Below are positions 5,496 to 17,157 of a DNA stretch of 47,202 nucleotides, piece by piece. The stretch is from a virus, in IMG/VR virus record IMGVR_UViG_3300027714_000028, positions 1 to 47,202 of that record, one strand, 5' to 3'. Position 1 is the first letter of the stretch. Each line of letters opens with the position of its first letter. The notes under the pieces are model-generated. The model saw only the letters and a program-made list of their open reading frames with translations. It was not told where the DNA came from and did not search any database. Both the position numbers and the translations under genes were made by a program.

Positions 5496-5759
5496 TTACG
5501 CTGAGCGTAGTGCTGCATAACCAGCAGCAACAACTGCTCGTGTCGGTGTACCAATCATATACTTCATATATGTCTCACCGTCAAAAGACGATACACGCTT
5601 GTTCAAATAGATCGTAAGACCTTCTGAACGTAGTTTACTAATCACGGAACGAACATTCTTAACACCATAACGTGATGTAATCTGTTTAGCGGTTAGTGAT
5701 GCACCATTAACAAGTGCGGCTTCGACCTTGGCGGCCTGGGTAGTGGTAGTAGTAGTCAT
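5496..5759 (-). CDS. Winged-helix/HTH DNA-binding protein, 87 aa
   Basis: After a Thr-rich N-terminus, residues 15-55 (SLTAKQITSRYGVKNVRSVI then SKLRSEGLTIYLNK) read as a helix-turn-helix with a following wing. The C-terminus ends in a conserved-looking TPTRAVVAAGYAALRS. It is a single-gene transcript with its own promoter, a 140-base structured leader and its own terminator. It occupies the position of T4 dsbA (next to gene 33), which also encodes a small DNA-binding protein, but I see no sequence reason to call it DsbA. Codon use is richer in GC than its neighbours. Confidence 0.75.
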   Translation of the reverse strand: MTTTTTTQAAKVEAALVNGASLTAKQITSRYGVKNVRSVISKLRSEGLTIYLNKRVSSFDGETYMKYMIGTPTRAVVAAGYAALRSA

Positions 5760-5889: not shown

Positions 5890-5905
5890 ATTCGTATTAT
5901 AACAG

Positions 5906-5934
5906 AGTATAACATAACAATACATATATGTCAA
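5906..5934 (-). promoter_or_regulatory. Sigma70-type promoter for the HTH gene
   Basis: TTGACA (5929-5934), 17-base spacer, TATACT (5906-5911). The predicted start near 5899 gives a leader of about 140 bases. Confidence 0.75.
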
Positions 5935-5952
5935 TACCCTTTTAAATAAAGT

Positions 5953-5980
5953 GGGAGACTTCTGTTGCAAGGTGTCTCCC
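5953..5980 (-). terminator. Terminator hairpin of ssrA
   Basis: Stem GGGAGAC/GTCTCCC with a 14-nt loop, followed on the minus strand by ACTTTATTT. It may double as the last helix of the coding piece. Confidence 0.65.
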
Positions 5981-5993
5981 GAACCCCGACAGA

Positions 5994-6038
5994 TTACGCA
6001 GCTAGTGCGAAATCCTCATATGCAATATTATCGTTTGC
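5994..6038 (-). other. tmRNA proteolysis-tag reading frame
   Basis: Fourteen codons from the resume codon GCA (6038-6036) to TAA (5996-5994) give ANDNIAYEDFALAA. The AND start and the ALAA end are the hallmarks of tmRNA tags; the terminal ALAA is the ClpXP/ClpAP degradation signal. Confidence 0.92.
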
Positions 6039-6350
6039 ATTTACTAATTTGACCAATAACGCAGTCATCCGACAATTCTCCACTCATCCGTCCCTGCCTG
6101 TCGATCCTAAATTTCGCCCCCATCAAAAAAAGACTAGGTAAATTATCCCTGCAAGTAAGGTTATGTCTGCACATATACTCCAAACGATATATGCCTTAAA
6201 CATCCACTTACTTACTTCTTTTACTAGAGGGCTCTTCATCAGAATCCCCTATTATTACCTTTAACACTCTAGTCTCCTTTTGGTGGAGGCGTTGGGTACT
6301 GCCCCCAAGTCCAGTTCAGTTCTCAATTCGTATCATCAAATTGTATACTA

Positions 6351-6379
6351 TTTATACCATACTAATAGTAATTTGTCAA
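6351..6379 (-). promoter_or_regulatory. Promoter for ssrA, overlapping a late-promoter box
   Basis: TTGACA (6374-6379), 17-base spacer, TATAAA (6351-6356). The -10 region extends to TATAAATA (6349-6356), identical to the T4 late promoter, so tmRNA could be made both early and late. It starts directly after the stop codon of the upstream gene. Confidence 0.75.
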
Positions 6380-6383
6380 TACC

Positions 6384-7499: not shown

Positions 7500-8657
7500 T
7501 CACTTATCCATAAATTCTGGGTAAGCATTTCCTGTACCTTCATACATATCAGAGCCGACTAATTCTTCTTCTTTACCTACACGAATACCGATAGTCTTAT
7601 GTAAGACCCACCATATCCCTAAAGATGTAGTGAATACAAATCCACCGATAACACCAATACCCAATACTTGAATTAATATTGTTGCATCTGAATTAAAGAT
7701 GGGAACTAATAGTAGACCAAGTATACCAGCAGTACCATGTACAGAGATAGCACCAACGGGGTCATCAATGCCCCACTTCTCAAGTAGAGTCATAGACAGT
7801 GGGACTAGTATACCACCCAATGCACCATAAAGTACTGCAATCTCTGGGCTTGGTGTATATGGATCAGCAGTAATAACTACCAACCCCGCCAATGCTCCAT
7901 TGAGAGTTACATTGAGAATGACCTTCTTTGTCCATAGTTTAGATACAATCATAGCACCTAACAGTCCACCTGCCGCAGCCATATTGGTGTTAACAAATAT
8001 CTTACCTAGTGCATTTGCATCAGCAATAGTAGAGAACGCAAGTTGAGAGCCACCGTTAAAGAAGAACCAACCCAACCATAGAATCAATGTACCTAATGCA
8101 ACCAGAGGCATATTTGAGCCAGGAATATTCTTCGGTTTACCATTCTTGTCATACTTCCCATCACGAGCACCAATCATAATTACAGACGCAAGTGCAGCTG
8201 CAGCACCAGCCATATGAACTATACCAGAACCAGCAAAATCAAAAAATCCTAATTCACTTAGGAATCCACCACCCCAAGTCCAAGAACCTTCTAGTGGATA
8301 TATGACTGCCGAAAATATAGCTGCAAATATTAGGAATGACCAGAGTTTCTTTCTCTCTGCGACTGCACCCGAAACAACAGACATTGCTGTTGCAACAAAT
8401 ACCATCTGGAAAAAGAAATCAGCATACATGGAATGAGTGTCTGGTTCATTCCACCCATACATTAGTCTGTATCCCAAAAACAAAAATGCAATAGATGCTA
8501 CTGAAAATAGTGCTACATTCTTTGTTAAAATCTCTGTGACATTTTTGGTTCTTACTGAACCTGCTTCTAGTGCAGTAAATCCTGCCGCCATCCACATAAC
8601 CATTGCACCCGATACTAGAAAAAATATCGTGTTTATTGCATAATTTGTTTCAATCAT
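7500..8657 (-). CDS. amt: Ammonium transporter Amt (phage-borne metabolic gene)
   Basis: Inner-membrane channel for ammonium uptake. The 385-residue protein shows about eleven hydrophobic segments and the family signature GFTALEAGSVRTKN near residues 26-39. Key residues are kept: Asp140 in FFDFAGS (equivalent to E. coli D160), and the twin pore histidines His148 (IVHMAGA) and His307 (ISVHGTAG), equivalent to H168 and H318. Length is close to mature AmtB; no cleavable signal peptide is apparent. No frameshift is seen. No PII/GlnK gene is in the window. It shares one base-overlapping operon with a small lipoprotein and lysozyme (ATGA overlap at 8654-8657). It probably boosts nitrogen supply in nitrogen-poor seawater. 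Confidence 0.95.
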   Translation of the reverse strand: MIETNYAINTIFFLVSGAMVMWMAAGFTALEAGSVRTKNVTEILTKNVALFSVASIAFLFLGYRLMYGWNEPDTHSMYADFFFQMVFVATAMSVVSGAVAERKKLWSFLIFAAIFSAVIYPLEGSWTWGGGFLSELGFFDFAGSGIVHMAGAAAALASVIMIGARDGKYDKNGKPKNIPGSNMPLVALGTLILWLGWFFFNGGSQLAFSTIADANALGKIFVNTNMAAAGGLLGAMIVSKLWTKKVILNVTLNGALAGLVVITADPYTPSPEIAVLYGALGGILVPLSMTLLEKWGIDDPVGAISVHGTAGILGLLLVPIFNSDATILIQVLGIGVIGGFVFTTSLGIWWVLHKTIGIRVGKEEELVGSDMYEGTGNAYPEFMDK

Positions 8658-16726: not shown

Positions 16727-16804
16727 TTAAAATATCAACCCAACTAAACCAACTGCTGAGTTTACAGTTAAAACTCCAACAAAAATTACTAAACTTAAAA
16801 TCAT
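16727..16804 (-). CDS. Possible 25-aa membrane peptide
   Basis: A frame linked by ATGA to the upstream gene and by TAA-ATG to rpsU encodes one hydrophobic helix (MILSLVIFVGVLTVNSAVGL plus five more residues). The perfect junctions on both sides favour a real coupled mini-gene, or a leader that couples rpsU translation. Confidence 0.5.
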   Translation of the reverse strand: MILSLVIFVGVLTVNSAVGLVGLIF

Positions 16805-17157
16805 CTTCCAATATCCTTTATACTATTTTTACTGATTACTTGATATGCACCCTTATTATAAGCTGGTGCAATTGTGAAATTGTGATCCATCACTTTTTTC
16901 TTTGGTGCTACTCCTACTGGAATAACATTAGAAAGTGGTGGTAGATCGGGTTGGTGGAGGCAAACGGGATTGAACCGCTGACCTTCTGGTTGCAAACCAG
17001 ATGCTCTCCCAACTGAGCTATGCCCCCCTATACCCATCTTCTTTAAAAACTTTTCGTGTTTGATCTCTGCCTCTAAAACAGACTTAGATTTCTTAAATTT
17101 CTTGCGTTTACGAGTACTAGTTGTACTAAAATAAACTGGTAATAGATGCATTGTCAT
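16801..17157 (-). CDS. Phage protein gene containing an in-frame tRNA-Ala
   Basis: Residues 1-43 (MTMHLLPVYFSTTSTRKRKK and a Lys-rich run) and the last 47 residues (from LPPLSNVIPVG to KDIGR, including APAYNKGAYQVISK) look like the two halves of a small basic protein I recall from marine T4-like phages. Between them about 26 residues (GGHSSVGRASGLQPEGQR and on) are simply the translation of the tRNA gene. The frame is open throughout, with no stop in the tRNA. Either the full message is translated, or RNase P/3' processing of the tRNA cuts it. The start codon follows a -10 box by six bases, so the message looks leaderless. Confidence 0.6.
   Translation of the reverse strand: MTMHLLPVYFSTTSTRKRKKFKKSKSVLEAEIKHEKFLKKMGIGGHSSVGRASGLQPEGQRFNPVCLHQPDLPPLSNVIPVGVAPKKKVMDHNFTIAPAYNKGAYQVISKNSIKDIGR
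16952..17027 (-). tRNA. tRNA-Ala (UGC), nested in a coding gene
   Basis: Complete cloverleaf: acceptor GGGGGCA/TGCCTCC, D arm GCTC/GAGC, anticodon stem TCTGG/CCAGA around TTTGCAA (anticodon UGC), T arm GCGGTTCAATCCCGT region, discriminator A and encoded CCA (16952-16954). It is on the same strand as the surrounding gene. Confidence 0.95.

Follow-up and report, generated by a model that had tools for sequence, protein, structure and literature searches.

A permuted tmRNA gene of a marine T4-like phage with a predicted small-protein cassette in its intervening segment

A permuted two-piece-type tmRNA gene was observed on the minus strand of the window, by which is meant the whole stretch of 47,202 nucleotides analysed here (IMG/VR virus record IMGVR_UViG_3300027714_000028), where cmscan gave matches to the Rfam families RF01849 (alpha_tmRNA, positions 5950-6383, 117.1 bits against a gathering score of 50, E 2e-31) and RF04321 (tmRNA_permuted, positions 5994-6344, 103.6 bits against a gathering score of 47), and where ARAGORN called a permuted tmRNA at 5903-6373, with the gene end carried on to 5903. 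A chance origin is ruled out by these covariance-model and ARAGORN matches, the gene is virtually certain to be intact, complete and circularly permuted, and its placement in the permuted, two-piece-type, alphaproteobacterial class, here in a T4-like marine phage, is supported. The acceptor (tRNA-like 3') piece, delimited at 6281-6344 by both Rfam matches and ARAGORN, contains the T-arm TTGGG-GGCAGTA-CCCAA (6308-6292) and the acceptor strand CGCCTCC (6291-6285), followed by A and the encoded CCA (6283-6281). The coding piece lies at 5950-6121, with the RF01849 match reaching 5950; it starts with GGGGGCG (6121-6115), which pairs with CGCCTCC at seven positions including one G-U, and carries the open tag frame ANDNIAYEDFALAA plus TAA (5994-6038, ARAGORN) with an ALAA-type degron end. 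The earlier note on this DNA had claimed a minus-strand tmRNA of this kind, with the CGCCTCC-A-CCA end placed before the GGGGGCG piece, a single G-U and the same tag, and had named the Rfam alphaproteobacterial model as the check; all of this is borne out, the model matching the minus strand well over its gathering score. The piece ends at 6281 and 6121 were also given correctly, while the 159 nt between them were overlooked and the protein-coding cassette within them was missed.

The gene is preceded by a sigma-70-like promoter candidate, TTGACA (6379-6374), 17 nt and TATAAA (6356-6351), recognized by eye as a consensus match at 6351-6379 and ending seven bases ahead of the RF04321 match start (6344); it is unlisted by the promoter scanner because the scanner requires T at the last position, and the tmRNA of phage Melnitz is preceded by the same layout. 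A second strong promoter-like site, TTGACA-17-TATACT (5934-5906, minus strand), lies just 3' of the tmRNA and before a small HTH-like ORF at 5496-5759. No intron family was matched in the window by cmscan at gathering score, nor at E values up to 1. The tmRNA family has an established function in recycling stalled ribosomes. SmpB was found neither in the window nor in the complete records of Melnitz and HTVC008M, so the tmRNA of the window would need SmpB from the host.

The intervening segment (ITS; 6122-6280, minus strand), which would be removed on maturation, encompasses a two-ORF cassette, as judged from its sequence and its relatives. A Shine-Dalgarno motif AAAGGAG begins at the first base after CCA (6274-6280) and is followed by ORF1 (6208-6267, ITS 14-73), a GTG-started frame of 19 aa, MLKVIIGDSDEEPSSKRSK, which overlaps ORF2 (6123-6239, ITS 42-158), an ATG-started frame of 38 aa, MKSPLVKEVSKWMFKAYIVWSICADITLLAGIIYLVFF, whose TGA (6125-6123) ends one base ahead of the coding piece. 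Among 48 distinct 159-nt relatives of the segment, ORF2 showed pN/pS values of 0.23 at ITS 74-155 and 0.36 in the overlap with ORF1, against 3.23 and 0.99 for the other frames over ORF2, and stops were present in none of the 48 in the ORF2 frame, against 35 and 48 in the other two frames. The core of ORF2 remained at 0.28 across length classes (69 distinct sequences), and in segments of 120, 157, 159, 160, 165, 174, 177, 183 and 186 nt alike the ORF2 frame runs on to the same stop; some relatives (253 and 260 nt) carry an additional ORF ahead of it. ORF2 is thus very probably a real protein gene, and a chance ORF is ruled out by the coding constraint in the 48 and the 69 sequences together with the shuffle comparison of phage segments described below. 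An assembly artefact is likewise ruled out, as the spacer of the window recurs identical to the letter in other contigs, at 6 places including the window. Different results were observed for ORF1, the frame of which is open at ITS 17-41 in all 48 relatives (stops in 41 and 15 of 48 in the other frames) with a pN/pS of 0.90, a value that reveals no codon-level purifying selection, so that ORF1 may be only a leader; an always-open frame with freely changing residues would be the pattern anticipated for a translated leader. The N-terminus of ORF2 is basic and precedes a single predicted transmembrane segment (hydropathy 2.1 across 19 residues), and the most likely product is a small membrane protein with a single span, predicted to be early. 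Comparison of ORF2 with Pfam gave only a sub-threshold match to DUF2542 (E 0.016), and no match was found in PHROG or by tblastn against 50,697 phage records.

The two ends of the segment are predicted to form a terminal hairpin (6123-6280, minus strand), in which AAAGGAGACTAG is paired with CTAGTCTTTTTTT and stacked on the acceptor stem, with a z score of -5.96 for the fold in the window. In the alifold consensus, ITS 1-11 pairs with 155-145 in 47-48 of the 48 sequences, and spacer ends pair in nearly all of the phages, with a mean of 11.6 bp. Phages outside the AAAGGAG family have a mean of 11.1 bp of spacer-end pairing against 6.0 when ends are cross-paired between phages, whereas real and cross-paired stems are alike within the AAAGGAG family (11.96 and 11.55), since its helix ends vary little. 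The surplus over cross-paired ends argues that the helix is real and that its likely role is to position the cuts. In the window, one strand of the helix holds the Shine-Dalgarno motif of ORF1, which both the fold and alifold bury, and the other holds the last codons of ORF2, the own Shine-Dalgarno motif of which (AGGGGA) lies under a small hairpin. In stand-alone cassettes the hairpin at the start of ORF2 is predicted and the terminal Shine-Dalgarno helix is not. ORF-free segments form the helix as well, and it is probably needed for processing anyway, so the burial of the Shine-Dalgarno motif could be a by-product.

Reading frames were also observed in the spacers of other phages, in a viral sample drawn with a pattern confined to the T-arm and acceptor, blind to ORFs and representing one acceptor sequence, which yielded 95 distinct segments among the matches listed. 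With a qualifying ORF defined as Shine-Dalgarno-led, at least 30 aa long and covering at least 70% of the segment, 20 of the 37 marine phage segments of at least 100 nt among the matches listed contain one, against a mean of 0.83 and a maximum of 4 in 200 dinucleotide shuffles of these 37, and among those below 100 nt the count is 0 of 58. Under the same rule none of 46 cellular alphaproteobacterial segments qualifies (5-126 nt, with the longest matches deliberately included); a 55-nt spacer with a frame of 23 codons comes nearest, and cellular alphaproteobacterial spacers measure about 5-75 nt as a rule. The cellular spacers were taken from a genome search; a pattern scan of genome contigs gave mainly one-piece tmRNAs of other phyla, and one further spacer-pattern scan gave no match. 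When loci were anchored on the exonuclease gene, 67 of 80 displayed a permuted tmRNA by pattern, with the AAAGGAG cassette in 37 (38 with L137, which the pattern missed), another ORF in 2 and a short spacer in 28.

The phage spacer ORFs belong to unrelated families of predicted proteins, such as a DUF6356 protein (PF19883, E 3.4e-8) in the segment of another phage, and relatives of spacer ORFs exist as stand-alone genes in Melnitz, Mosig and C48C1, those of spacer-encoded proteins of 120 aa and 82 aa being in Melnitz and Mosig. Melnitz itself has a spacer ORF of 54 codons, unrelated to that of the window and unannotated in its record, with a pN/pS of 0.36 and stops in none of 6 variants, against 6 of 6 in each of the other frames. 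The longest spacer seen (L036, 499 nt) contains an ORF of membrane type (120 aa), to which a stand-alone gene of Melnitz is related. Mosig_00184 (MT647606.1) is annotated at 125506-125613, and in-frame homology reaches upstream (125506-125751, about 82 aa), so the annotated start is probably wrong. Otherwise different spacer proteins of L084, L109, L146 and L167 exhibit a common C-terminal motif Y[ED]D[LV]C[MK], perhaps an exchanged tail, and the TTG-started spacer ORF of L040 has zinc-ribbon-like paired cysteines and histidine (CQNH...CDAC) and reads into the coding piece.

The locus as a whole is probably a dual-purpose gene, that is, a tmRNA precursor and a small-protein messenger. One transcript from the early-type promoter would represent both the precursor of the two-piece tmRNA and the mRNA for the small proteins, and tRNA-processing enzymes would cut it at CCA and at GGGGGCG, the latter presumably through host RNase P, to give the two tmRNA pieces. 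As the helix holds the Shine-Dalgarno motif of ORF1 together with the last codons of ORF2, loading and folding would be mutually blocking, with ribosome loading on the segment opening the helix and the folded helix preventing loading, and translation of the small proteins would then compete with maturation of the tmRNA; this competition, drawn from comparison and fold, is conceivable and close to evenly balanced in our judgement. Translation of ORF1, as a leader, would probably open the small hairpin that covers AGGGGA. A single short gene would supply the phage with both a small membrane protein made early and an RNA for ribosome rescue. A broader proposal, put forward tentatively and with somewhat more doubt, is that in marine T4-like phages the discarded spacer became an expression slot for small proteins, where RNA folding and ribosome loading are mutually exclusive and the level of translation in the infected cell sets the amounts of tmRNA and small protein.

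A different account of the cassette makes it a passenger, a mobile small gene pair for which the spacer of a permuted gene is a safe landing site free of any regulatory tie, likened to the ORF-bearing intervening sequences of 23S rRNA and compatible with coupling; we consider it possible and on the doubtful side. Its evidence comes from cassette copies outside the tmRNA, among which L492 has the cassette just ahead of the acceptor piece, in a tmRNA locus whose own spacer measures about ten bases, L192 has it directly upstream of a short-spacer tmRNA, L016 has it about 500 nt upstream of another such tmRNA, and in L489 it adjoins structural-type genes far from the tmRNA, as it is far from the tmRNA in others also. 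These outside copies keep the same ORF1/ORF2 overlap, and their existence implies that the two ORFs form a real gene pair, which has moved into or out of the spacer. Mature tmRNAs that are close relatives may have the cassette or lack it (L134, L143), those close to that of the window having an ORF-free spacer of 18 nt or 74 nt, and several unrelated ORFs occupy the slot, both of which favor a passenger. Adaptation to the slot is suggested, however, by the distribution of the AAAGGAG-type cassette, present at 133 places within the segment and in 17 true copies outside it, in a collection made with a DNA pattern and drawn partly for this motif (17 stand-alone among 19 listed, L485 and L506 being spacer copies with the acceptor side outside the pattern or contig), and by the observation that across families the Shine-Dalgarno motif lies in or beside the processing helix, with the start codon about 14-24 nt after CCA.

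Far less room is left for a conserved structured RNA with accidental reading frames, which the strong fold and the conserved terminal helix would fit, but which is scarcely credible given the codon-specific constraint confined to the ORF2 frame, the frame-keeping length changes, the homologous ORF outside the tmRNA and the known family DUF6356 in the segment of another phage. The view of the earlier note, an ordinary host-derived tmRNA and nothing more, agrees with the intact gene, the Rfam matches and the published phage examples, but does not explain a spacer of 159 nt where cellular alphaproteobacteria rarely depart from the short lengths above; as a complete account it is refuted by the coding signature in the 48 relatives, and it is very improbable. 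A sensor resembling ArfA, in which cleavage removes the stop of the ORF, so that the product is tagged if the tmRNA works and is full-length only if the tmRNA fails, gains support from 12 of the 92 ORF-bearing segments, in other phage families, where the ORF runs past the cut and stops within the coding piece (+13, +42 or +105). In the family of the window (73 of 92), however, the stop precedes the cut by one base and is kept on the excised RNA, and the sensor would there require an extra helix cut, for example by RNase III, which is speculation; we regard this explanation as unlikely.

With the known permuted tmRNAs of Alphaproteobacteria (RF01849, merged RF04321), the gene of the window shares the T-arm, acceptor pairing, encoded CCA, order of pieces, ALAA tag and paired spacer ends, whereas the two overlapping ORFs in 159 nt set it apart from cellular spacers, which lack qualifying ORFs. 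The ssrA of Melnitz is alike in permutation, gene order and the presence of an (unrelated) spacer ORF, and differs in the glutamine riboswitch after the tmRNA, which cmscan did not detect in the window; the Melnitz record and the portion of PMC9004378 considered here make no mention of a spacer ORF. The 23S rRNA intervening sequence with the S23p ORF in Coxiella, in the part of PMC4990558 considered, likewise represents a protein ORF in an excised segment of a non-coding RNA without splicing, and the results given there suggest that the protein is not made; the RNA concerned is an rRNA, and ORF2 has no Pfam match to S23p. Genes nested within a tmRNA gene are also described in PMC11915505, namely a tRNA-Ala in the permuted tmRNA spacer of GCA-2688965, termed a unique feature there, and a homing endonuclease gene in group I intron tmRNA; the former concerns a nominally archaeal genome and an RNA gene, not protein genes in a phage, and the latter sits in a self-splicing intron in the T-loop, while the window matches no intron family. 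In a curated survey of 2025 with 97,179 tmRNA sequences, the spacer oddities singled out are a tRNA and a repeat, and no description of protein ORFs in a permuted tmRNA spacer was found in the literature searched, which was mostly open-access and included this survey. If the cassette is translated, one transcript would serve as messenger and as precursor of a ribosome-rescue RNA at the same time, and the competition between processing and translation becomes directly testable; the spacer ORFs would also explain the great length of some phage spacers and add a group of small phage proteins now concealed by the label 'tmRNA' in pipeline annotation.

Proteins of the window match those of Melnitz, with the shared gene order PhoH, exonuclease, tmRNA, gp33, gp59 and gp32, and this comparison identifies the phage as a T4-like relative of Melnitz. 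According to the part of the Melnitz paper considered (PMC9004378), phage genomes contain 53 two-piece tmRNA structures, of which 50 are marine or aquatic, so the tmRNA of the window by itself adds one more member to an established kind; further unannotated permuted tmRNAs were detected by ARAGORN in HTVC008M, RpoS-V10 and RcXuper. A rough tree of the mature tmRNA places the window among other phage tmRNAs and apart from the 10 cellular rows, with few cellular rows and an unsettled bootstrap, and the gene looks like an old phage lineage. The alphaproteobacterial type proposed by the earlier note stands, whereas its statement that the gene was taken from the host is weakened, and its use of the layout as a host marker is unsafe, as Melnitz, with an alpha-type tmRNA, infects a gammaproteobacterial OM43 host according to the same part of PMC9004378. 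Near the tmRNA, an ORF of 385 aa (7500-8657, minus strand) reads by eye like an ammonium transporter (Amt) and is a possible nitrogen auxiliary gene. Elsewhere in the window, a tRNA-Ala(TGC) at 16952-17027 (minus strand) lies within an open frame of 118 aa (16801-17157) that is unlikely to be a real gene there.
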